This document shows, one piece after another, positions 31,726 to 44,571 of a stretch of DNA of 64,000 nt (position 1 is its first letter; each line of letters begins with the position of its first letter). The DNA comes from Collimonas sp. OK607. Lineage in GTDB: Bacteria; Pseudomonadota; Gammaproteobacteria; Burkholderiales; Burkholderiaceae_D. The position numbers were made by a program, and so were the translations under genes. The stretch is taken from the NCBI RefSeq assembly GCF_900111995.1, contig NZ_FOKF01000020.1, positions 1-64,000 on the forward strand, read 5' to 3'. The notes below the pieces were generated by a model. It had not been told where the DNA came from. It worked only from the letters and a program-made list of their open reading frames with translations, and did no database searches.

Positions 31726-33285
31726 ATGGAAATCGAACTAAAACTATTGCTGAATCCAAGTGATGTCAGCAGCTTCAAACGTCATCCCTTGTTAAAGCAC
31801 TATGCGATAGGCAAACCGCAATCGCGGCAGCTAATCAGCATTTACTTCGATACGCCCGATCTGTATCTGCAGAAAAATCACACTGCGTTGCGGGTGCGCA
31901 AAGTAGGAGCACGCTGGGTCCAGACGTGTAAGAGCGGCGGCCAGGCTACCGCGGGCTTGCATCAACGGCCGGAATGGGAGTCGGATATCGGCGGAGCGGC
32001 GCCCGATTTGCCTGCCTTGCAGGGGCTGTTGCCGTCTGGCACTCCGGTGGCCCAGTTGTTGTCTGCCCCGGGCCTTGCCGACCGTTTGCAACCGATATTC
32101 ACTACGCAATTTCAGCGCACCATCTGGCTGCTGCGGTCACTGGCAGGCGACGAGGTGGAACTGGCCCTGGATCAGGGTGAAATCCTCCATGGCGACAGCA
32201 GTTTGCCGATCAGTGAAATCGAACTGGAGCTTAAGTCCGGCGCGGCGGCGAGCCTGTTTGAATTGGCGCTCGGATTGCAACATACGGTGCCATTACGCGC
32301 CGCCAATGCTAGCAAGGCCGAGCGCGGCTATGGCCTGCATTCGCCGCAGGCACCTGCCGTCGTGAAAGCGCAGCCAGTCGCTTTGTCTTCCGAGTTGACG
32401 GTGGAGCAGGGATTCCAGATTTTGCTCGGCAACTGCCTGGCACATATGCAAGGTAACGAAGATGGCGTAGTGCATGGCGTCGATCCGGAAAACCTGCATC
32501 AGATGCGGGTCGGATTGCGGCGCTTGCGCGCAGTGCTCGGCCTGTTCAAAAAAATCATTCCGGTTCCGCCGGAAATATCGAATCAGCTCGACTGGTTGGG
32601 AGGCACACTGGGGCCGGCACGTGACTGGGAAGTGCTGGCAGTCGCCACGCTGGCCGATGCGGTAAGGCGCTGCCCGAACCCGGCGCAGCTGGATAATTTG
32701 CGGCAGCTTGCCTTCAGCGAGGCAGGCCGGCATCGCAATGTCGCCGCAACTGCGGTCGAATCTCGTGCTTATACACGATTGTTATTGATGCTTGGAAGTT
32801 GGATCGAGGGGCGGCGGTGGCGTGAGGGACTGGGCACGGAACAGATTGCAGCGCTATCCTCGCCTTTGAAGAAATTCGCAGTCAAGAAACTGGCAGGCTT
32901 GCAGAGAAAGTTGTTGAAGCGTGGCCGTCGCATCAAACAGCATGATGCCGCCAGGCGCCATCGGATCAGGATCGCCGCCAAAAAAATACGCTATGCCACA
33001 GAATTTTTTGAAGTATATTTGCCGCCTAAACGTAGCCATGCCTATGTCACCGCTCTAGGCGACCTGCAAGATGATTTGGGTGCCGCTAATGATCGCAGCG
33101 TGGCCGACAGACTGCTGCAACAGATTGCCGATTCGCATCCCGAAATGGCGCCGGGACTGGCCGAATCCTGCAATCTGGCTCGCGAGCTGATGGATGATGG
33201 TCGAAAACACAATAAATCTGAAGCTGCCAGATTATGGCAACGATTTGTCGCGCTGAAGCCGCCGGTGAAGGTCCATTCGTCCTGA
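31726..33285 (+). CDS. CYTH-CHAD domain protein (YgiF-like triphosphatase)
   Basis: 519 residues. The N-terminal CYTH domain (about 1-205) starts with the ExExK motif MEIELKLLL and forms the triphosphate tunnel; LISIYFDTPD and LRVRKVG are further conserved strands. The C-terminal CHAD domain (about 225-510) is helical and basic with repeated His/Arg, for example HQMRVGLRRLRAVLGLF and RHRIRIAAKKIRYATEFF, and binds polyphosphate. The pair is found in E. coli inorganic triphosphatase YgiF. Confidence 0.92.
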   Translation: MEIELKLLLNPSDVSSFKRHPLLKHYAIGKPQSRQLISIYFDTPDLYLQKNHTALRVRKVGARWVQTCKSGGQATAGLHQRPEWESDIGGAAPDLPALQGLLPSGTPVAQLLSAPGLADRLQPIFTTQFQRTIWLLRSLAGDEVELALDQGEILHGDSSLPISEIELELKSGAAASLFELALGLQHTVPLRAANASKAERGYGLHSPQAPAVVKAQPVALSSELTVEQGFQILLGNCLAHMQGNEDGVVHGVDPENLHQMRVGLRRLRAVLGLFKKIIPVPPEISNQLDWLGGTLGPARDWEVLAVATLADAVRRCPNPAQLDNLRQLAFSEAGRHRNVAATAVESRAYTRLLLMLGSWIEGRRWREGLGTEQIAALSSPLKKFAVKKLAGLQRKLLKRGRRIKQHDAARRHRIRIAAKKIRYATEFFEVYLPPKRSHAYVTALGDLQDDLGAANDRSVADRLLQQIADSHPEMAPGLAESCNLARELMDDGRKHNKSEAARLWQRFVALKPPVKVHSS

Positions 33286-33388
33286 TTGCTTGGTCCTTCG
33301 CCCTATTTGGTGCAAAATACGCTCGCCAAGCTCTTCCTGTAACACCGTGGATGAAGGTGAGCGGGGCAAGAAACACCGGAGTGAAATC

Positions 33389-33613
33389 ATGACCTACGAA
33401 GAATACCTGGACGAAGTCACCACCTTGATGGTCGAGTTATACGATCTGAAAGATGAAGCCGCGATCAAATACGTGATGCGGGCGCAAGCAGCGGATTTTT
33501 TTACCTTGCATGACGACGATCCCGCCATGCGTACGCTGGAGCGCGCGCGCGAAGATGCCAAGACGATTTACGAACAGCGCAACAAGTCGCGGCCTGAACT
33601 GTATCGTAAATAA
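33389..33613 (+). CDS. conserved small hypothetical protein
   Basis: 74 residues starting MTYEEYLDEVTTLMVELYDL. It is acidic and helical, without a signal or membrane segment. The extension to 33290 has no support. It lies between the CYTH-CHAD gene and the pseudouridine synthase gene on the same strand. Family not named; coding is judged from codon pattern and start context. Confidence 0.65.
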   Translation: MTYEEYLDEVTTLMVELYDLKDEAAIKYVMRAQAADFFTLHDDDPAMRTLERAREDAKTIYEQRNKSRPELYRK

Positions 33614-33709
33614 GTTTGACCAATAAGTCAGGCTGCAGGCGGTTACAATAGCCATCCGCGATTTTCTCGCAGTTCCTCTGCGCAGTTCTCTAGTTTACAG
33701 ATCTCATAC

Positions 33710-34444
33710 ATGACCGAATCCATCCGCCTTGCAAAACATCTCGCCAACCTGATTTCCTGCTCCCGCAGTGAAGCAGAACAATATATCGAGGGCGGTTGGG
33801 TCAAGGTCGATGGCAAAGTGGTTGAGGAGCCAGGGGTACGCATCGGGCCGCAGCAACAGGTCGAACTGATGGCGGGCGCGACACTGGAGCCGCAAGACCC
33901 GGTGACCATCCTGTTTCATAAACCGGCTGGCCTCGATCTGTATGCCGGTCCGGCGCTGAGCGAGTTGGCGTCACAGTTGATTGTGCCAGAGAAGCGCGCC
34001 ACCGACGACCGCGCCGAATTACGTTTCCTGAAGCACCACCTGGCCAATCTGAACCTGATCGAACCGTTGGAAACCCTGGCCAGCGGTTTGCTGGTTTTCA
34101 CTCAGGATTGGCGGATTACCCGCAAACTGGTTGACGATGCCGCCAAGATCGAGCATGAATTCATTGTCGAAGTGGCTGGCGATATCATTCCTGACGGCCT
34201 CAAGCTGCTGAATCACGGCCTGAGCTTCAACCGCAAGCCGCTGCCGCCGATCAAGGTCAGCTGGCAAAATGAAAAACGCTTGCGTTTCGCTCTCAAAGCA
34301 CCGCCGCGTGGCCTGATCGTGCACATGTGCGAACAGGTCGGATTGCAGGTGGTCGCCAGCAAACGCATCCGCATCGGCCGCCTGCCGATGGCTAGCCTGG
34401 CGGTCGGCGAATGGCGTTATCTGCTAGGTTACGAACGGTTCTAA
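33710..34444 (+). CDS. RsuA/RluB-type pseudouridine synthase, catalytic Asp replaced
   Basis: 244 residues. An S4 RNA-binding domain (about 5-65: RLAKHLANLISCSRSEAEQYIEGGWVKVDG) precedes an RsuA-type synthase domain. Where the family has G-R-L-D-x-x-T-x-G-L-L, this protein reads E-P-L-E-T-L-A-S-G-L-L, so the catalytic aspartate is a glutamate. Later motifs (EHEFIVEV, RIRIGRLPMASLAVGEWRYL) are kept. It may be catalytically inactive, altered, or an RNA-binding relative. A strong terminator follows. Confidence 0.85.
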   Translation: MTESIRLAKHLANLISCSRSEAEQYIEGGWVKVDGKVVEEPGVRIGPQQQVELMAGATLEPQDPVTILFHKPAGLDLYAGPALSELASQLIVPEKRATDDRAELRFLKHHLANLNLIEPLETLASGLLVFTQDWRITRKLVDDAAKIEHEFIVEVAGDIIPDGLKLLNHGLSFNRKPLPPIKVSWQNEKRLRFALKAPPRGLIVHMCEQVGLQVVASKRIRIGRLPMASLAVGEWRYLLGYERF

Positions 34445-34509
34445 CGCTCTTTCCGGATTTGTTTTTTTCGGCGGCAACAGTCCGCTTCGGCGATGAAATA
34501 GGGGCAGGG

Positions 34510-34550
34510 TGATTTTCGCAAAACCGCGAAAATCACCCTGGCCTTTTTTT
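34510..34550 (+). terminator. rho-independent terminator after the pseudouridine synthase
   Basis: Perfect 13-bp stem GGGTGATTTTCGC / GCGAAAATCACCC with a short AAAACC loop, then TGGCC and a T7 run. It ends the plus-strand group 31726-34444. Confidence 0.92.
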
Positions 34551-34903: not shown

Positions 34904-35940
34904 ATGTCTGCAATTCCCTCACGCAATCGTTACACACCAAAAACACGCGGTGTTGATATCACCGCTCTCATACCAGATTTCCCCTTTGATTATGGCAATT
35001 TTCTGGAAACCGCCAAGAGCAAAGGTACAGCCCTTTTCGAGATACCAGCCGCAGGCAAAGGTAAAAAGGTACTGGTCGTTGGCGCCGGCGCTTCTGGCAT
35101 GGCGGCTGCCTATGAACTGTTGCGGATGGGTTTACATCCTGTGGTGGTTGAAGCATCGGATCGTATCGGCGGCCGTCTAAATTCTCATCGTCTGGGCAAT
35201 GTTAGTAACCAAAGTCTTGCAGAGCTAGGTGCGATGCGCTTCCCCGCGTCCGGTAAAACCGGGATGCACTATTTCAGCAAGCTTGGGATGCTGTCAAACT
35301 CTGCGCCGTTTCCGAATCCAGGTAGCGAATCGGCAGTCAGCACAGTGGTTGATTATGAAGGCAAAATAACCTATTACGAAAACCGTGGTGAGGGTATATC
35401 TAATCCTTTTCCACCACCAAAAGAGTATCTTGATCTGGAGGATGACCTGTTTGGTCCAGACGGCTTTCTTAATGAAGATCCGATAAATTACGACGAATTT
35501 CAGAGAGCACTACTAGCTGGCAATACGGACTGGGAAGAAATCAAAAGAATCTGTGATGCGCTACTGGTTGCGCACAAATGGGATAACCTCAGTTTCCATT
35601 CCGCTTTGGTTGAAGTGGCAAAATGGGATACCAAAAAAATCAATCTTTTTGGCCAAATTGGCTTCGGTACCGGCGGATGGAATACCGACTATCCGAATGT
35701 TTTTTTGGAGGTGTTGCGCGTACTTTACACCGGTCTGGACGTAGATCATCAATTGATGTACGACGGAGCAGAAACGTTGCCGCAAGGTTTAATGAATAAA
35801 TCGCCGCGTGAGCTGGGTGACGCTTCCGATCCGATCACCATTGATGCCACTGTTAACGATTTGAGTGAGGCAATTCTTGGAATATATTTTAGTGATAATC
35901 CAAGCGTTACTCAAAAAGAAGTACGTCATCTTCAGCGCAA

Positions 35941-35945
35941 CACAG
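35941..35945. repeat. target-site duplication of IS21 element, left copy
   Basis: CACAG directly before the element; the same five bases follow its right end at 38551-38555. Five bp is within the range known for IS21. Confidence 0.8.
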
Positions 35946-36100
35946 CCCCGTTGGCCGGTCAAATTACCCCACTTCTGGCCAGGTTAAATTACCCCACCCC
36001 GTGAGTAGCTGACATTGCCGTAAGGCCCGGTCAGCGTTCATCGTGAACATCCTGTTGGCAGGACGTTATCTTCTTCCCTCGATAGTCGAGGGAGTTCGGA

Positions 36101-37684
36101 GTGTACGTCTTGAAGCAGCATCTACAAACTACAGTCATCACATTGCTTGCGGCCGGCAAGAGCCAGCGCGAAATTGAGCGCATCACCGGCGTCAATCGCA
36201 AGACCATTCGCAGTCTGGCGCAACGTACTGACGCTGACGTTTCAAATTACCCCGGGGTGGCCACCGGCTCAGACCCGCAAATTACCCCACCCCGGCCACC
36301 GACTATTTCCAGTGGACCGGTGTCGGCGTGCGAGCCACACCGAGCCTTCATCGAGGCCCAGCTACGCCTGCGCCGCAACTACACGGCGATTTACCAAGAC
36401 CTGGTTGACCAGTTCGGCTTTACTGCCGCCTACAACAGCGTCAAACGCTTTGCCGGCACGCTGGTGGCGCGCGAACCGGAACAGTTCGATCGGCTTGAGT
36501 TCGCGCCCGGCGAAGAGGTACAGGTCGACTACGGCGAAGGCGCCATGACGCGCGTGCCAGGCAGCGACCAATATCGACGCCCTCGACTATTCGTGATGAC
36601 CCTGCGGTACTCCCGGCGCTGCTTTCGCCGGGTCGTGTGGAAATCCAGCCAGGAAACCTGGGCACGACTGCACGAAGAGGCCTGGCGCTACTTCGGCGGA
36701 TGCCCTAGTTATGTGGTCCTCGACAATCTCCGGGAAGGCGTCATCAAGCCTGATCTGTACGAGCCGGAACTGAACCCGGTCTACAGCGCCATGCTCGCCC
36801 ACTATGGCGTGGTGGCCGACCCGGCGCGGGTGCGAGATCCGAACCGCAAGGGCACCGTCGAGAATGCTATCCAGCATACCCAGAGCACCGCGCTCAAAGG
36901 CCGGCGCTTCGAATCGATCGAAGAACAGAATGCCTTCCTCGAACGGTGGGAAACCAAGTGGGCTGCGCTGCGTATCCACGGCAGTGTCAGGCGGCAGGTC
37001 GAGGCCATGTTCCAGGAAGAACGTACCCACCTGAAACCGTTGCCGCTGCAAGGCTTCCAGTATTTCACGGAGTGCGAGCGCACGGTCGCCGACGACACCT
37101 GCATACGGATCGACCACAGCAGCTACGCGGCGCGTCCGGCCATGATCGGCAGCCGCGTATTGGTGCGACTGTTCGAGCATCATATTGAGATTCGCAACCG
37201 CCACACCCATGCTGTGCTGCGTACCCATCCGCGCGCCCAGCGCCCAGGCAGCGTGCTCCTGCCTGACGATGAACGGCCCTTTAATCCTTCACGCGAGACA
37301 CGCCGCATCCTGGCCCAGGCCGAAGATATCGGTCCAGACACCCTGCGACTATGTCAGCAATGGTTCGACAAAGAAGGTCGAGTCGGCCAGCGCAAGCTGT
37401 GGGGCATCGTCAACCTGGTCAAACGTTACCCGCGCCGCCTGATAGATCAGGCCTGCGCCCAAGCCTTGCGCGAGAACGTGTGTAGCTATAAATCGATCCA
37501 GATCCTGACCGAGCGCTTACTTGTCGCTGCGTTGGCGGAAATCGACGCGCCGGTTCAGGGCGAGTTGGATTTGACGCAGCAGCATCCCCTGATCCGGGAC
37601 GGCGACGACTACGCCGACCTGTTCACCCTCGGCGCCCAGAACAGCGCCGCTTTACCACCCACTAAGGAACCATCCCCATCATGA
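36101..37684 (+). CDS. istA: IS21 transposase IstA
   Basis: 527 residues from a GTG start. An N-terminal HTH (TTVITLLAAGKSQREIERITGVNRKTIRSLAQ) is followed by a DDE integrase core (EEVQVDYGEG, then VLDNLREGVIKP, then NRKGTVENAIQ), the order of the catalytic acids in IS21 transposases. The C-terminal part binds DNA ends and IstB. The stop overlaps istB by 4 bp. Terminal-repeat copies lie inside its 5' coding region (36243-36298). Confidence 0.95.
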   Translation: MYVLKQHLQTTVITLLAAGKSQREIERITGVNRKTIRSLAQRTDADVSNYPGVATGSDPQITPPRPPTISSGPVSACEPHRAFIEAQLRLRRNYTAIYQDLVDQFGFTAAYNSVKRFAGTLVAREPEQFDRLEFAPGEEVQVDYGEGAMTRVPGSDQYRRPRLFVMTLRYSRRCFRRVVWKSSQETWARLHEEAWRYFGGCPSYVVLDNLREGVIKPDLYEPELNPVYSAMLAHYGVVADPARVRDPNRKGTVENAIQHTQSTALKGRRFESIEEQNAFLERWETKWAALRIHGSVRRQVEAMFQEERTHLKPLPLQGFQYFTECERTVADDTCIRIDHSSYAARPAMIGSRVLVRLFEHHIEIRNRHTHAVLRTHPRAQRPGSVLLPDDERPFNPSRETRRILAQAEDIGPDTLRLCQQWFDKEGRVGQRKLWGIVNLVKRYPRRLIDQACAQALRENVCSYKSIQILTERLLVAALAEIDAPVQGELDLTQQHPLIRDGDDYADLFTLGAQNSAALPPTKEPSPS

Positions 37685-38475
37685 CCATGAGCGAAATCGA
37701 ACGAGCATTATGCGCTTTGCGCCTGTCCGGCATCCGCGCCACACTGGAAACCCGCATCCTGCAGGCGCAAGCCAACCAGGAACCCTTCCTCGACACCTTC
37801 TCGCTGATTCTGCAAGACGAGCTGGACCGGCGCCGTTCCCGTCTGATGGATCGACGCTACCAGCAAAGTGGCCTGGACGAACGCCTCACTCTGGCCGATC
37901 TGGACTGGCGCTTCAACCCGAAGCTGCCGCGCGCCGCCTGCTTCGAGCTGCACACGCTCAAGTTCATCACCGAAGGGCAGAACGGACTCATCATCGGCAA
38001 ACCTGGAACGGGCAAGAGTCATGTCGCCAAGGCGATTGCCTATCAGGCCACGCTGCAGGGACTCAATGTCCGCTACCTGGAGGCCGACAGCGCGTTTGCC
38101 AAGTATGCGCTGGGCAACGATGCCGAGCAGCGCAAACAGCTGCGCACGTTGCTCGACGCTGACCTGCTGGTTCTTGACGATCTATTCCTGGCCCGCCGCA
38201 TCAGCGACGCCGCCAGCGAGATGTTGCAATCGCTGGTGCACCAGCGTTACAAGCTCAGACGCAGCATCGTGGTCACCTCCAACCGCGTCGTGCAGGACTG
38301 GGGGAAATACCTCCACGATAACACCATGGCCACCACCATCCTGGACCGTCTCATGCATCGCGCGCATCTGCTTGAATTTGAGGGGAAGAGCTATCGACTG
38401 AAAGAAGCTGCCAGCCGTTTGACTGGTTTGACTGCACAAGAAACTATAAAAACCGACAGCACCAAGAACGATTAA
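37681..38475 (+). CDS. istB: IS21 ATPase helper IstB
   Basis: 264 residues. AAA+ ATPase with Walker A GKPGTGKSHVAKAIAYQA near residue 104 and Walker B LLVLDDLFLARR. The arginine-finger region is near RRSIVVTSNR. IstB selects targets and stimulates IstA. Full length and intact. Confidence 0.95.
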   Translation: MTMSEIERALCALRLSGIRATLETRILQAQANQEPFLDTFSLILQDELDRRRSRLMDRRYQQSGLDERLTLADLDWRFNPKLPRAACFELHTLKFITEGQNGLIIGKPGTGKSHVAKAIAYQATLQGLNVRYLEADSAFAKYALGNDAEQRKQLRTLLDADLLVLDDLFLARRISDAASEMLQSLVHQRYKLRRSIVVTSNRVVQDWGKYLHDNTMATTILDRLMHRAHLLEFEGKSYRLKEAASRLTGLTAQETIKTDSTKND

Positions 38476-38550
38476 TCTACAATCTGTCATGTCCTGCCTG
38501 GGGTAATTTGACCTGGCCAAGGGCGGGGTAATTTAACATGGCCAACGGGG

Positions 38551-38555
38551 CACAG
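38551..38555. repeat. target-site duplication of IS21 element, right copy
   Basis: CACAG directly after the right end, identical to 35941-35945. Confidence 0.8.
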
Positions 38556-39397
38556 TAGACAACACACTGACAGTTTCCATTACCGATACCACCAACGGTA
38601 GACAACAGGATATTATCTTTGACGCGGTCATCTACACCCCGCATGTCAGGATTCTCGACAAATTTCGTCATTACGGAACTCCTGAACAATATAAGCAGAC
38701 CACCGCTCTTTTCGAGCACAGCACTTGGGAAGCGATCGAATACACCCACTACATGCAATCGGCAAAAATTTTCATGGCTACCAGAGAAGCGTTCTGGAAA
38801 GAGCGCGACCCTCTGGATGGCAAGCAGAAGATGAGTATCACGCTATCCGATCGCCTCACCCGTGGAACCTATTTGGTGGATTATGCTGATAACCAGGGGG
38901 CTGACAGGGGTTCCGGCATTTTCCTCTCCTATACCTGGAACGACGATTCCCTGAAATTCCTGGGCGATCGAGAAAATGAAAATGGATTACTGGTGCATGC
39001 AAACATGTGTCGTCAAGTTCTGAAAGACATTTATCCCAAAGTTGATCTCGCAGACTATGCGATATCAGGAAATACTGGAGAAGTGGAGATTAATTGGGAA
39101 AATGAACCGCTATACCTGGGGGCATTTAAGATGAACCTGCCGGGTCAATACGATTACCAGCGTATTCTTTTTTCACAATTCATGACAGGCGTCAAAGAGG
39201 GAAATCCCCATCCCATGGTGCTCGCCGGTGATGATATATCCTGGGTTGCGGGGTGGGTGGAAGGTGCCCTTACCACCAGCATAAATGCTGTAAATAAAGT
39301 TGCTGTTGTCTTTGGCGGAGGAGATTTTGCTGGCAATGAAGGGCCGATTACCAGGTGGGATGATCTGAAGCCAGTGATTATTTGATTGTCGCTCTTG

Positions 39398-39425
39398 TGG
39401 CGCTACTGCAACCGCACTAGCGCCA
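39398..39425. terminator. possible bidirectional terminator between convergent genes
   Basis: Perfect 8-bp stem TGGCGCTA / TAGCGCCA with a 12-base loop, between the ends of the amine oxidase gene (plus) and the NCS1 gene (minus). No T tract, so only moderately likely. Confidence 0.4.
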
Positions 39426-39524
39426 ATAACATTGCACATTATCCTGAGTTTACAAAAAAACTCATGGCGTGTAGCGAAGGAGGTCCAAGGATATTTGCAC
39501 TTCCTTCGATACCGTGCAACGCAT

Positions 39525-41033
39525 CTATTTAAGTTTCAAATCCTTTTCACTTTGCGCAATAAACGGCTGCTCCGCTTTTAAATCAAGTGAGCGTGCGAAT
39601 AAATAATAAGCGCCGCCAGAGACGATCAAACCAATCAGCCAGCCTATGTCAATTCCACCTAAGGCTTTGGCAATTGGGCCTTCATAAAAATCTCCTGCAA
39701 TAATAAAAGGAATCATTGCGACAAAGCCGATCAGGTACGCCCCTATCCCGCGCCATTCCCATGCACCATAAATGCCATCGGGCGTAAAGAAATGCGTAAT
39801 TGCATAATGACCACGGCGCACAAAGAAATAGTCCACAAGATTGACTGCAGTCCAAGGTACCAAAAAGTACAGCATGATTGCCAGGAATCCTTCAAGCAAG
39901 TGCAACGCTTCGCCGCTTAACGCCAGAGTGAATGCCAACCAGATAGCGGCAATCGCGATCGTGGTGGTGATTCGCGTGCCACGCGTCGGGTGAATTTTGC
40001 GGATCGAATCAACGCCAGTCAACACCGTTAATACACCGCTGTAGGCGTTTAACCCCATTACTGATACCAGCGAAATTACCGATGTGATTACCACCAGATA
40101 ACCAAAGCCGGGCAACACGTTAGTGCCCGCCTGATACAACGCAACCAATGCATCCGTGCCACCCAGGCGGGTTGCTAACCATGCACCCAAAGCAATCATC
40201 CAAATGCCGGAAAATGAAGCGCCACCGGCAATTGCTGTAATTAAAGCCGATGAACGTGTTTTACGAGGTAAATAGCGCGAGTAATCGGAGACATACGGGG
40301 CGTATGAAATATTGTAGCTTGCACCTGCAGCAAATTGCGTCAGGAACGCGACCCAGCCGAAAGCCGCGGTGTTGGCACCGTGGCTTACAATATCCGTTGT
40401 GGTGGCATCGGAATTGTTTGCAAATCCCAGCAACGCCGCCAGCGTCAGCACGGCATACACCGGTACGCTGATCATGAATGAGTACTTGAACACCTTGTGC
40501 AACAGGTCATGTCCATATATCGCCAGCACCGCTGCAATGACAGTCGCAACAATGGCGACCACGCTGCTTTGCCAGCCAAACAAACTCTGCAAACCACTAC
40601 CCAGCAACGCGCCATTGACGACATTGAAGCCGACAAACACCAGCAAAGTTCCGAGCAGAGCCAGCACCACACCGCGATAGCCAAATTGTGCGCGTGACTG
40701 AATCATTTGCGGCAAGCCCAATTGCGGTCCTTGTGAACCGTGAAGTGCCATGAACAAGGTGCCAAACAAAATTCCCAAGCCACCTGCAAGTGCACTCCAC
40801 CCAGCCGTTAATCCCATTGACGGGCCGATAAAGCCGATGGATACCGTGAAAAAATGAAAGTTACCCAAGAACCAGAATGGGCCCTGATCTCGCACCTTTG
40901 ATGTGCGTTCATCGTCGGGAATGTAATCTATCGAATGCGCTTCAATAGAATTGTGGCGTGCTGCTGCACCCGCGTCAATGGCCTGGGTATTCGCTGTCAT
41001 GTCTTCTCCTGGTTTATTCTGATTCGATCGCAC
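39525..41033 (-). CDS. NCS1-family permease (cytosine/purine/hydantoin type)
   Basis: 502 residues with 12 helices. NCS1 features: an N-terminal hydrophilic lead ending DERTSKVRDQGPFWFLGNFHFFTVSIGFIGPSMGL, QLGLPQMIQSRAQFGYRG, and a late YFFVRRGHYAI segment. These proteins import nucleobases, hydantoins or related amides with a proton or sodium ion. It follows the nitrilase-type gene by 19 bp on the same strand, so it likely takes up that enzyme's substrate or a precursor. It could start slightly downstream, at MTANTQAIDAG. Confidence 0.9.
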   Translation of the reverse strand: MRSNQNKPGEDMTANTQAIDAGAAARHNSIEAHSIDYIPDDERTSKVRDQGPFWFLGNFHFFTVSIGFIGPSMGLTAGWSALAGGLGILFGTLFMALHGSQGPQLGLPQMIQSRAQFGYRGVVLALLGTLLVFVGFNVVNGALLGSGLQSLFGWQSSVVAIVATVIAAVLAIYGHDLLHKVFKYSFMISVPVYAVLTLAALLGFANNSDATTTDIVSHGANTAAFGWVAFLTQFAAGASYNISYAPYVSDYSRYLPRKTRSSALITAIAGGASFSGIWMIALGAWLATRLGGTDALVALYQAGTNVLPGFGYLVVITSVISLVSVMGLNAYSGVLTVLTGVDSIRKIHPTRGTRITTTIAIAAIWLAFTLALSGEALHLLEGFLAIMLYFLVPWTAVNLVDYFFVRRGHYAITHFFTPDGIYGAWEWRGIGAYLIGFVAMIPFIIAGDFYEGPIAKALGGIDIGWLIGLIVSGGAYYLFARSLDLKAEQPFIAQSEKDLKLK

Positions 41034-41052
41034 CCGGCCTTGCTGTGCGTCG

Positions 41053-41880
41053 TTATGATTTTTTTATGCGCTGGGCTTGAGTGTGCTGATTGCCGATGTC
41101 TACTTCTTCCATCGCCAGCTTCACCTGACGTTGATCGAGATAACAATATTCTTTCCGACTTTCGTGCACTGCCGAGAAATCCAATTGCGCCGTCAGGGTG
41201 GAAGCACCGTTATTTGCTTGCAAAACGATATCGCCATAGGGATTGATCACCATGCTGCCACCGGCAAACGATTCGCCGGCGGCATCCGTTTCGCAGCGAT
41301 TTACAAGAATCGAGAACACTTGATTCTCCATGGAGCGTGCGGTCAGCGCGCGTTGGTGCACCACGCCATGGGGATGCATCAGACCATCGCTGACGATAAT
41401 CAGTTCTGCACCCAAACTGGCGAGCGCGCGTGCCGACTCCGGAAATTCAATATCGAAACAGATTAATAATCCAATCTGACGGCCGTTCCACTGCGCAGTT
41501 GTAAAACAATCGCCGGGGCTGAAAATGCCGGTATCGGCCGACCACAAATGTACTTTGCGGTGATGCAAGACAATTTCACCTGCAGCATCGATCAATACAC
41601 TCGCATTGAAAAATTGATCGTCGCTCACTTCAGCGAAGCCGAGTGCAACCGCGATTTCATACTGCCGTGCTGCTGCGCAAACTTGAGCGATCATTTCGCC
41701 GCTGACGGCTTGCGCCAATACGGCCACATTATCTGCGTCCGGGAACCCACTGAAAACAGTTTCTGGAAATACCATGAGCTGCGTGCCGATACAGCGTTGT
41801 GATATTTTTTCCAGAACCGTCGCTAAATTGATGGCGAGTGCGCCATCTACAATCGCTACTTGAGCTAATTCGATTTGCAT
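41053..41880 (-). CDS. nitrilase-superfamily carbon-nitrogen hydrolase (amidase)
   Basis: 275 residues. The catalytic triad is visible: E40 in VFPE, K109 in HHRKVHLW and C141 in LLICFDIEFPE. The sequence HRKVHLWSADTGIFSPGD and the length resemble the DavA/omega-amidase side of the superfamily rather than true nitrilases. It would hydrolyse a small amide to acid plus ammonia. It lies between a 39-aa ORF (6 bp gap) and the NCS1 permease, opposite the interrupted amine monooxygenase gene, whose product could be its amide substrate. That link is inference. Confidence 0.88.
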   Translation of the reverse strand: MQIELAQVAIVDGALAINLATVLEKISQRCIGTQLMVFPETVFSGFPDADNVAVLAQAVSGEMIAQVCAAARQYEIAVALGFAEVSDDQFFNASVLIDAAGEIVLHHRKVHLWSADTGIFSPGDCFTTAQWNGRQIGLLICFDIEFPESARALASLGAELIIVSDGLMHPHGVVHQRALTARSMENQVFSILVNRCETDAAGESFAGGSMVINPYGDIVLQANNGASTLTAQLDFSAVHESRKEYCYLDQRQVKLAMEEVDIGNQHTQAQRIKKS

Positions 41881-41886
41881 CGCAGC

Positions 41887-42006
41887 TCAGATTTCTGAGT
41901 TTTGCGTTTGTGATGCATAGAAATCACAAGCAATGCCCGCGTCACGGCAAATCACGGCATTTTTGCGCTGATCCATACCGACATTCTTGAAGCTGATGTT
42001 TTCCAT
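41887..42006 (-). CDS. 39-aa Cys-pair peptide, DUF1059-like core
   Basis: The minus strand from 42006 reads MENISFKNVGMDQRKN and then AVICRDAGIACDFYASQ, ending at a TGA 6 bp before the amidase gene. CRDxGxxCDF is the signature of DUF1059 proteins, which are usually about 55-60 residues with a C-terminal His segment absent here. A weak GCGGGA site precedes the ATG. It may be a short member, a truncated one, or coincidence; the exact motif and tight operon spacing argue for a real gene. Confidence 0.5.
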   Translation of the reverse strand: MENISFKNVGMDQRKNAVICRDAGIACDFYASQTQNSEI

Positions 42007-42313
42007 TGCAATCCCGCAAGTATTGATATGAACGAAGTTTATATGTTAACTAAAAATCAATATTACGGGTATTGCGGCACTATCATATAGTGCCAATCTG
42101 ATTTTTTTTGACGGAGCCACTTTACGCGTGGCACCGCTTGCGGATCTTAATTTATAGATCGCCAACCTGTAGGAAATATCGAGGTTGTTCAGTTTCGCGA
42201 GAATGATTTCGCGCTCTTTGAACAGGCCAGGCGCGGACGCTAGCATTCGAGATTGCTGGTCGCAATCAAGATCGATTTTCTCGTATTACTGGTTACGTCA
42301 GACCTAAAATTCG
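42007..42313. other. intergenic region upstream of the amidase-permease operon
   Basis: AT-rich stretch between pqiC and the small DUF1059-like ORF. It should hold the operon promoter and the end of the pqi transcript. A perfect 8-bp dyad is annotated separately. A 66-codon minus-strand frame (42046-42246) overlaps the dyad and shows no recognisable protein. Confidence 0.4.
42076..42094. promoter_or_regulatory. perfect dyad, operator or terminator
   Basis: GGCACTATCATATAGTGCC has two 8-bp arms around CAT. On the plus strand it is followed by AATCTGATTTTTTTT, which would suit a terminator, but no plus-strand gene ends here. Relative to the minus-strand operon it lies about 70 bp upstream of the first start, fitting an operator for an unknown regulator. 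Confidence 0.4.
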
Positions 42314-42937
42314 TCAGGTTTTGCAGCTCGATGTCATATTGGCCTTGAATGCCGTGACATTTGCAGCGATACCATCGGCCGCATCGGCAACCGTGCGCTG
42401 CACGCCGAGCACCAAGGCATCGATACCCGGCATCACCGCTTCGGTTACGCTTAACTGGCAAGCGCTGCTACGGTTACTGTCGGAGCGGGTGATGGTCCAG
42501 CCGTAGGTGGCTTGTACCTTTTCCCCAGGTACGGCGTCAAATTCACGCAACTCAACAGCAATCCGATAGACAGGTTGATCTGTCGGCCGGCCGCTGCGGC
42601 TGACGTCGATCGCGCCCAGCCGATTGGCGATGGCGCTAGCCAATGCATCCCGCAATTCATTGTTGAACGGCGCCGACCAGCGCTCCTGTTCCAGGATGTC
42701 GATCCGCGCGCTGGAAGCGCTGCCGGCGCTTCTGACTACCAGCTGCGGCCGCGCCAGGCGTTCCGGCAAGGTGACCGGCGCGACGTCGATGAATGTTCGC
42801 GTATTCTGGATTGCCGGCGCAGGTACGGTTAGGGCCGGCGCCGAGAGCGTATAAAAGCGCGTCGGGGGAGAAGCGCAGCCGGCCAGCAGCAGTGCAACGG
42901 CGATAGCGCTGAAACGCGCCGATAAGATCGATGTCAT
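42314..42937 (-). CDS. pqiC: PqiC outer-membrane lipoprotein
   Basis: 207 residues. The lipobox LLAGC lies near residue 20, followed by ASPPTRFYTLSAPA, the start of the ABC-type transport auxiliary (PqiC/DUF330) domain. The segment LERLARPQLVVRS and the later DISRSG-like part follow the family. PqiC forms the outer-membrane end of the PqiABC lipid-transport bridge. The ATG shares one base with the pqiB stop. Confidence 0.9.
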   Translation of the reverse strand: MTSILSARFSAIAVALLLAGCASPPTRFYTLSAPALTVPAPAIQNTRTFIDVAPVTLPERLARPQLVVRSAGSASSARIDILEQERWSAPFNNELRDALASAIANRLGAIDVSRSGRPTDQPVYRIAVELREFDAVPGEKVQATYGWTITRSDSNRSSACQLSVTEAVMPGIDALVLGVQRTVADAADGIAANVTAFKANMTSSCKT

Positions 42938-44571
42938 TATTTATTTTCCTCTTGCTTGCCCCGGATCAGTGCTTCCGGATGGCGTTCCAGGTAATCGGTC
43001 AAGACCCGTACCGATGCAGCCGAGCGTGTCAGTTCCTGCAAGGTCTGGCGGATGTCTTGTTGCAACGGCGCATTGTCGGACAGGGTGCGGTTAGCGTTGT
43101 CCAGCGTGGTGCGGACATCTTTCATTGCAGCCTTGATTTCCGGTGCGACATCGTTATTCAAGCTTTTGGTCAGTTGCTCTGCATTGAGCAAGGTACGGTT
43201 CAAAGTGCCCAGCGTTGTCTGCAAATCGGCAGCTATCTTGTCGAACGGCACTTTGCTCAGGTTTTTGGCGATTTCAGCGAGCTGCGACTGGATTTCATCC
43301 AGGCTGTTCGGGATGGTGGGCAACTCAATCACAGAGGTTGAGGTATCAAGGGTGACCGGCGGCGCTTTCGGGAAAAAATCAAGCGCGATATACAGCTGGC
43401 CGGTCAACAGGTTGCCGGTCCGCAGTTGCGCCCGCAAACCACGGCTGACCATGTATTGCAGACGCTGTTTGGGGGTATAGCTTGTATGCGTGTCGTCTTC
43501 CGCGTACTTGCGTCCCAGCCGTTGCGGATAAATCTGCACGGCCACCGGCATACTGAATTCGCGGCGTTTGGTATCGTATTCCAGGCCGATCGATTTCACT
43601 TCACCCAGGACTACGCCGCGGAAATCGACGGTGGTGCCAGGCGTCAAGCCGCGCAGAGACTGGTTGAAATACAGCACCACGGTTTCAGAGGGGCCGTCGG
43701 GTTGTTTCATGGCGGTTTCCTGGTCTGTCGCCAGGTCGAAGGTAGTGTTTTCCTTGGCCTTCATGCCCAGGTCGTCATCCGGCGACTGGAACGCTATGCC
43801 GCCCAGCACCACGGTTGCCAGCGATTGCGTACGCAGCTTGAAGCCGCTGGCATTGATCTGCATGTCGAAACCGCTGGCGTGCCAGAAGCGGGTGTTGACG
43901 CCGATGAATTTGTCGTAAGGCGCATCGATGAAAATGCGCAAGGTGACGCCTTTGCCGTCGGCATCCAGATCGTAAGCGGCCAGCTGGCCGACTTTGATCC
44001 GGCGGAAATAGATCGGCGAGCCGATATCCAGCGAGCCGATGTCGGCGGCATGCAGCATGTATTGCTTGCCCGAGGCGTCGTGTGTGACAATCGGCTGTAC
44101 TTCCAGCCCGGTAAACGCGTGTTTTGTTTCCTCGGAGGTGCCGGCGTCGGCGCCGATATACGCGCCCGACAGCAAGGTTCCCAGACCCGAAACGCCGGAA
44201 GCTGCTACCCGTGGCCGGACTACCCAAAAGCGCGTATCGGCGGAAGTGAAGCTTTCAGCTTCTTTCGATAGCTGTACATTAGCCAGGACGTGCGAACGAT
44301 CTTTGCTCAGGGTGATGGTCTGCACCAGCCCGATATCGACATCCTTGTATTTGACCTTGGTTTTTCCAGCCTCCAAGCCTTCCGCCGTGTGGAAAGTGAT
44401 GGTGATGGATGGCCCGCGTTCGACCAGGATCTTGACCACCAGCGTCAAACCGACCACCGCGGCGACAATCGGGATCAACCAGATCAGGGAAGGTAGCCAA
44501 TCGCGTTTGCGGCTCAACTTGGGTTCCGGCAAAGGCGGCAACGTGGGAGGCAGTCCGTTTTCATCACTCAT
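42937..44571 (-). CDS. pqiB: PqiB, MCE-domain intermembrane lipid-transport tunnel
   Basis: 544 residues. One N-terminal helix (about 27-49) is followed by three MCE/MlaD repeats (starts near ITFHTAEGLEAGKTKVKY, VQPIVTHDASGKQYMLHA and TVVLYFNQSLRGLTPGTTVDFRG). A long C-terminal helical region from about 420 forms the needle. It spans the periplasm and moves lipids between membranes. It overlaps the upstream pqiA gene by 4 bp. Confidence 0.93.
   Translation of the reverse strand: MSDENGLPPTLPPLPEPKLSRKRDWLPSLIWLIPIVAAVVGLTLVVKILVERGPSITITFHTAEGLEAGKTKVKYKDVDIGLVQTITLSKDRSHVLANVQLSKEAESFTSADTRFWVVRPRVAASGVSGLGTLLSGAYIGADAGTSEETKHAFTGLEVQPIVTHDASGKQYMLHAADIGSLDIGSPIYFRRIKVGQLAAYDLDADGKGVTLRIFIDAPYDKFIGVNTRFWHASGFDMQINASGFKLRTQSLATVVLGGIAFQSPDDDLGMKAKENTTFDLATDQETAMKQPDGPSETVVLYFNQSLRGLTPGTTVDFRGVVLGEVKSIGLEYDTKRREFSMPVAVQIYPQRLGRKYAEDDTHTSYTPKQRLQYMVSRGLRAQLRTGNLLTGQLYIALDFFPKAPPVTLDTSTSVIELPTIPNSLDEIQSQLAEIAKNLSKVPFDKIAADLQTTLGTLNRTLLNAEQLTKSLNNDVAPEIKAAMKDVRTTLDNANRTLSDNAPLQQDIRQTLQELTRSAASVRVLTDYLERHPEALIRGKQEENK

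Follow-up and report, generated by a model that had tools for sequence, protein, structure and literature searches.

Do the genes for a flavin-dependent monooxygenase, an NCS1-type permease, and an amidase that lie together with a 39-codon open reading frame (ORF) in Collimonas sp. OK607 form one pathway, and which compound would this pathway serve? These genes are located in a 64,000-nucleotide stretch (contig NZ_FOKF01000020.1, positions 1 to 64,000; here called the window) of a 5.37-Mb genome assembled in 90 contigs. The locus was compared among 15 genomes of the genus and a wider set of 100 relatives (both including the source genome); G002, G011, and the 1.7-Mb genome G001 designate same-genus relatives. 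The original prediction, made from the letters alone, had assembled these genes into a candidate amino acid to amide to acid pathway, and all of the genes it named were present, with their ORFs, domain matches, and catalytic letters confirmed. With moderate confidence, we favor the explanation that they form an island encoding a variant of this route that is tied to the gab genes through a captured gabT control region.

In the mechanism proposed here, an intact monooxygenase would convert a basic L-amino acid (probably lysine, ornithine, or arginine) to an amide one carbon shorter, while the NCS1 permease would import a similar amide as an alternative source. The amidase would hydrolyze the amide to an omega-amino acid (presumably 5-aminovalerate, gamma-aminobutyrate [GABA], or 4-guanidinobutyrate), which the chromosomal gabT-gabD cluster would then degrade. 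The amidase and permease genes would be transcribed from the captured region (i.e., the operator, the start region, and 39 codons of gabT), and a MocR-type regulator encoded divergently from gabT is predicted to bind the operator, whose homology and genomic rarity are observed. Because the monooxygenase gene is broken in this strain, at most uptake and hydrolysis would be left.

The region upstream of the amidase and permease genes

The 39-codon ORF, initially regarded as a separate peptide component, corresponds to the 5′ end of gabT, which encodes GABA aminotransferase. A weak NCBIfam hint to this family was obtained with the ORF itself (E 0.0036); G002 holds a copy of the same length, and this copy as query matched the GabT start in 14 of the 15 genus genomes (E 3e-5 to 3.2e-4), beyond the two island copies. 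Letters common to the ORF and the GabT start include QRKNA, CDFYAS, and N.EI. A functional peptide gene was rejected as an explanation, given the absence of a Pfam match at E ≤ 0.1, neutral divergence, and no coding constraint: the window and G002 copies are 67% identical (26 of 39 residues, with 26.9 expected in simulations of 20 random base changes), the frame stayed open in 56% of these simulations, and the ratio of nonsynonymous to synonymous substitution rates (dN/dS) was 0.50.

The likeness to gabT extends upstream of the start codon. Island upstream DNA was 76–78% identical to gabT upstream DNA over 51–70 bp in the window and 84–86% identical over 47–51 bp in G002; the match ends 74 bp 5′ of the island start codon and 76 bp 5′ of the start codon of the strain's own gabT, a distance that is shorter in some congeners. 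This region contains a gabT-type operator (Table 1), the box layout of which fits that described for GabR of Proteobacteria (PMC5320631). The palindrome GGCACTATNNNATAGTGCC, with up to two mismatches allowed, occurs at only two places in the genome, one before the amidase gene (0 mismatches) and one before gabT (2 mismatches); the reversed pattern, used as a control, occurs at none. A 43-bp operator pattern with up to three mismatches was found at 16 places in the 15 genus genomes (control, 0), 14 of them before gabT and two before the amidase gene (G002 and G011). The gene divergent from gabT encodes a MocR-type protein with GntR and aminotransferase domains, and the gabT cluster contains a PotA-like ATPase and a GabD-type dehydrogenase (867.6; cut-off, 828). 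No sigma-70-like site was found in positions 41850–42330.

From this likeness, we read the 39-codon ORF as the scar of a captured gabT control region, which would reveal how the amidase–permease pair is regulated. The stop codon of the ORF is separated from the amidase start by a 6-bp gap, which would allow termination-reinitiation coupling. In G011, the 39 codons are missing, with the cut located between the two start codons; this loss could have arisen by deletion between GCAATGAAAA and GCGATGCAAA, two stretches that resemble each other. A more specific joint claim is that a one-step capture of the gabT 5′ end wired an amide operon into the GABA regulon, that the NCS1 permease carries omega-amino amides, and that the set serves the gab system as its own branch for amides, which the monooxygenase feeds without being indispensable; we regard this claim as possible but doubtful, and we know of no transport of omega-amino amides by an NCS1 protein.

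The island and its monooxygenase gene

The set lies between rluF-like and pqiC-like genes, and none of its three genes (monooxygenase, permease, and amidase) was found between rluF and pqiC in any of the 11 other genus genomes fetched, where the gap measures 26–70 bp (n = 6) or 0.6–1.35 kb (n = 5); the set is thus an island at one site. G002 contains the whole set with the same layout as the window and an uninterrupted monooxygenase gene (623 amino acids). G011 contains only the permease and amidase genes, with no monooxygenase beside the pair, suggesting an imported amide as a source for the pathway. In two Pseudomonas genomes (P. fluorescens ISL-62 and P. proteolytica DSM 15321; loci L032 and L033), the set is found in a different order, with the monooxygenase gene divergent from a permease–amidase pair in which the two genes overlap at their ends by a few bases. 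All three intact enzymes of this clade that were seen (G002, L032, and L033) have the permease and amidase as neighbors; the predicted linkage of the genes was thus borne out in G002 and the two Pseudomonas, though G011 lacks the monooxygenase.

Table 1. Features of the island and its flanks (positions are those of the window)
Feature	Coordinates	Strand	Remarks
Monooxygenase, 5′ part	34904..35945	+	PF01593; PDB 3we0; ORF continues into the insertion sequence to 36004 (366 aa)
IS21-family element	35946..38550	+	2,605 bp; istA 36101-37684, istB 37681-38475
Monooxygenase, 3′ part	38558..39385	+	275 aa, without a start codon of its own; PF01593; PDB 3we0
NCS1-type permease	39525..41033	-	PF02133, 1.6e-47, residues 37-468 of 502
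Amidase	41053..41880	-	PF00795, 5.1e-45; E40-K109-C141
39-codon remnant of the gabT 5′ end	41887..42006	-	GabT start matched (see text)
gabT-type operator	42073..42125	-	Two direct boxes (spacing, 25 bp) plus one inverted box; palindrome 42076-42094
rluF-like pseudouridine synthase and CYTH-CHAD protein genes	31726-34444		One island flank
Inverted repeat GGTGATTTTCGC...GCGAAAATCACC, then a T run	34508-34549		3′ of rluF; also in G002
pqiC/pqiB-like genes	42314-44571		Other island flank

The inverted repeat and T run located after rluF are likely a terminator. No rluF match was obtained in G001 (1.7 Mb, listed as 99% complete, and about one-third of the congener size), in which the gabT operator, the arginase family, and the island were also unmatched; this organism is perhaps a reduced symbiont.

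The monooxygenase gene is broken by plain transposition of an IS21-family insertion sequence. The original prediction had spoken of a repaired monooxygenase; the break that this implied is real, and its cause is established here. IstA-type transposase and IstB matched their NCBIfam models (261.4 bits with a cut-off of 160 for the IS21 transposase, and 214.6 with a cut-off of 200 for IstB), the ends of the element are inverted, and a CACAG target duplication flanks it (35941–35945 and 38551–38555); target duplications in this family range from 4 to 8 bp. The element resembles others of the family in its istA, istB, terminal repeats, and short target duplication, and no difference was noted. Against the G002 gene, the two halves gave gap-free alignments of 348 and 275 codons (92% identical each), and dN/dS against G002 was 0.10 and 0.07 for the halves, 0.09 for the permease gene, 0.16 for the amidase gene, and 0.07 for the neighboring rluF; the gap-free alignment and low dN/dS of both halves are consistent with a recent break. 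No second relative of the monooxygenase was found in the strain's own genome at E ≤ 1e-15.

Both halves matched PF01593 (2.7e-19 and 2e-16 for the 5′ and 3′ halves, respectively), and a match to NAD_binding_8 was also obtained, as expected for the flavin amine-oxidase fold with its FAD-binding motif. The best match of both halves in the PDB was the L-amino acid oxidase/monooxygenase 3we0 (6.6e-48 and 8.1e-48), followed by Trp 2-monooxygenase 4iv9. With the source genome included, the enzyme was found in only four of the 100 relatives (E ≤ 1e-15), in five of 399 genomes of the order (E ≤ 1e-30), and in two of 398 genomes at the phylum level (E ≤ 1e-80), with at most three candidates per genome scored in the order-wide and phylum-wide searches; four plasmid records also matched (E ≤ 1e-40, 31–37% identity). 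A scan of named genomes provided at least 80 loci with homologues, some of them on short stretches. Identity to the G002 enzyme was 55% for the ISL-62 enzyme and 53% for the DSM 15321 enzyme; the other 78 homologues among the matches listed are 36–40% identical. Identity to three lysine/arginine-type DavB proteins was 37–39%. In a tree with a very long outgroup branch (flagged by a tool warning), 17 DavB-type sequences grouped together (100/98) without the G002 and Pseudomonas enzymes, which places the monooxygenase as a probable sister of lysine/arginine-type DavB, outside the DavB group. Among the matches listed, a carbon-nitrogen hydrolase gene was found near the homologue in 77 of 80 loci and an NCS1 permease gene in two of 80, which are exactly the two Pseudomonas loci.

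Several relatives were observed in other contexts. G011 encodes a distant amino-acid-oxidase-like protein of 723 amino acids (L031 9565-11736; G011:C7) that is 24–33% identical to the monooxygenase. In Geminicoccus flavidas (L092, 1-3922), an agmatinase-like gene, a DavB-type monooxygenase gene, and gabT are consecutive, an arrangement suggestive of a route from arginine via a 2-monooxygenase to GABA; a carbon-nitrogen hydrolase was looked for on this 6.6-kb contig but not found. In Haloechinothrix halophila (L052) and an Actinophytocola metagenome-assembled genome (L101), DavA-like, DavB-like, and agmatinase-like genes share one locus, and the agmatinase-like gene suggests arginine as the substrate for part of the actinobacterial group.

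The residues E40, K109, and C141 of the amidase are the letters that had been given for it, and each lies inside its expected motif. Its description as DavA-like held in part, in that the enzyme belongs to the nitrilase superfamily with a Glu-Lys-Cys triad but falls outside the group of DavB-adjoining amidases: in a tree whose deeper branching is unresolved, a 15-sequence DavA group (85/97, moderate support) excluded both the window amidase and the Pseudomonas one. These two do not group with each other either; different amidases in the same role are as expected if the monooxygenase product is an amide. Among the 100 genomes, the G002 and G011 copies are 87% identical to the window amidase, and five more genomes presented matches of 29–32% identity (E ≤ 1e-20). 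Outside the genus, the closest named amidase is that of B. cenocepacia (45.6%), which has a gene for an APC-type permease directly downstream.

Close copies of the permease gene were present in three of the 15 genus genomes (including the source genome); the permease is 91% identical to those of G002 and G011, and 44% and 43% identical to those of the Pseudomonas loci. A score of 82 bits for TIGR00800, with a cut-off of 353.1, places it outside that named subfamily. Relatives were matched on 16 plasmid records, 12 of which were viewed (one without annotation, and two representing the same B. multivorans locus). Apart from the two cases discussed below, their neighbors are mixed (e.g., nitrile hydratase, urea-carboxylase-associated, and further genes), such that the neighborhood does not fix the permease substrate. 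The B. multivorans locus was not counted as a choline/carnitine case; its Rieske oxygenase and reductase had no NCBIfam match at E ≤ 1e-60.

Substrate, product, and alternative explanations

In the enzyme of Pseudomonas sp. AIU 813 (3we0), Asp238 binds the charged end of lysine, ornithine, and arginine, Arg102 and Tyr416 serve the alpha group, and Phe473 and Trp516 form a cage; Trp 2-monooxygenase has Val247 at the Asp238 position and Phe at the Trp235 position (PMC5832979). Asp238, Arg102, Tyr416, Trp235, Trp418, Phe473, and Trp516 are kept in all three clade members, and Asp238 is present in the window gene, whose matching stretches are readable, suggesting that a basic amino acid is favored as substrate and tryptophan disfavored. 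Of the alternatives first proposed for this locus, lysine or arginine is therefore the likelier, and auxin was not supported. A pathway from tryptophan through indole-3-acetamide to indole-3-acetate would draw on the superfamily likeness to Trp 2-monooxygenase 4iv9, but with Asp in place of Val, Trp235 in place of Phe, and a gabT control region in front of the amidase gene, it is hardly credible. Positions 254, 258, and 515 bear Leu, His, and Gly in all three clade members, and Cys, Gln, and Ala in the AIU 813 enzyme; Cys254 and Gln258 of the AIU 813 type are thus absent from the clade, and elsewhere Cys was found in three and Gln in four of 82 genes. Substitution of Cys254 by Ile increased the oxidase activity of the AIU 813 enzyme and abolished its monooxygenase activity (PMC5832979), and by analogy Leu at this position could lead to a keto acid product, in which case the first enzyme would be an oxidase and the amidase would work on a different compound. 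This Leu was not taken as proof of an oxidase, since all 78 other homologues among the matches listed also lack Cys254 (they have Ala at this position and His at 258) and nearly all adjoin an amidase gene. The recurrent amidase neighbor favors an amide product, and we consider the oxidase explanation quite improbable.

Along with this Leu, several observations weigh against the explanation that we favor. The window operator has one extra base between its boxes (25 rather than 24 bp), because of which the 43-bp pattern missed the island copy in the window. The regulator encoded beside gabT scored above the cut-off for PdxR (449.7; cut-off, 320) and below those for GabR (319.7; cut-off, 600) and rhizopine MocR (489.5; cut-off, 650). 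The operator was found neither before the monooxygenase gene nor in the Pseudomonas loci, so that the regulatory link is confined to the amidase and permease genes of this genus. Choline or carnitine genes adjoin two of the 12 permease relatives viewed, hinting at a substrate with a trimethylammonium group, which would be unusable for GabT: these related NCS1 "cytosine permeases" (L143 and L147) adjoin the choline dehydrogenase gene betA in Azoarcus, or genes for carnitine 3-dehydrogenase and a phosphocholine phospholipase in Novosphingobium. In L032, moreover, the set lies between the glycine betaine monooxygenase genes gbcA/gbcB (NCBIfam equivalogs) and glyA- and sox-like genes (identified by eye). 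The permease might then import trimethyllysine or a similar betaine and the monooxygenase and amidase form delta-valerobetaine, with the gabT region serving as a promoter only; Asp238 would suit such a cation, and DavB and DavA are reported to form delta-valerobetaine from trimethyllysine (PMC11773067). We consider this distinctly unlikely, as the gabT operator suggests a primary omega-amine, the other permease relatives viewed have unrelated neighbors, and the position beside the gbc genes in Pseudomonas could simply reflect an insertion site. The permease and amidase could also simply import and hydrolyze an external amide, with the monooxygenase as an accidental or dispensable neighbor, as suggested by the pair without monooxygenase in G011, the broken gene in the window, the dN/dS values of the permease and amidase genes, and the permease gene downstream of the B. 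cenocepacia amidase gene. However, Pseudomonas also has a monooxygenase gene next to the pair, in a different order, and the halves of the window gene presented low dN/dS values as well; pure scavenging is thus unlikely. The explanation that we favor remains the amino acid to amide to acid route tied to the gab genes.

Comparison with known systems

If this explanation is true, a permease and a regulatory link would be added to the amino acid to amide to acid routes for 5-aminovalerate (and, with trimethyllysine, for delta-valerobetaine), and the island would represent a clean case of regulon recruitment through a captured control region, with the 39-codon ORF as the trace left in the sequence. 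Because the operator is shared, the product class (i.e., a substrate of GabT) can be tested directly.

The island resembles the IaaM-IaaH auxin pathway in the superfamily of the first enzyme and in an amide intermediate. It differs in the substrate-selecting residue, which is of the basic-amino-acid type, and in its amidase, a member of the nitrilase superfamily; IaaH, by contrast, belongs to the amidase-signature enzymes. With the arginine-type loci of Geminicoccus and some actinobacteria (a monooxygenase with an agmatinase-like gene, and in Geminicoccus also gabT), it shares His258, Gly515, and a product for GabT; in contrast to these loci, it has an NCS1 permease, belongs to a different clade, and contains no ureohydrolase gene, the three arginase-family genes of the genome all being located outside the island. 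Unlike the GabR (MocR-type) regulon of Proteobacteria as described in the main text of PMC5320631, in which the word "amidase" does not occur, the genome has a second operator before the amidase–permease pair. In the literature covered (titles and abstract openings, with few subscription papers), no paper dealt with this gene set or with an amidase–NCS1 pair in a GabR regulon.

The closest comparison is with DavB-DavA, which converts lysine to 5-aminovalerate (with the AIU 813 L-amino acid oxidase/monooxygenase, 3we0, as its structural reference). Both systems pair a flavin amino-acid 2-monooxygenase with a nitrilase-superfamily amidase, keep the cation-binding Asp and the residues that bind the alpha group, and would yield a product of the class used by GabT and GabD. 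We read the island as a variant of this DavBA-type pathway, differing in a monooxygenase from a sister group with Leu, His, and Gly at positions 254, 258, and 515, an amidase from outside the DavA group, an additional NCS1 permease, and a captured gabT control region.

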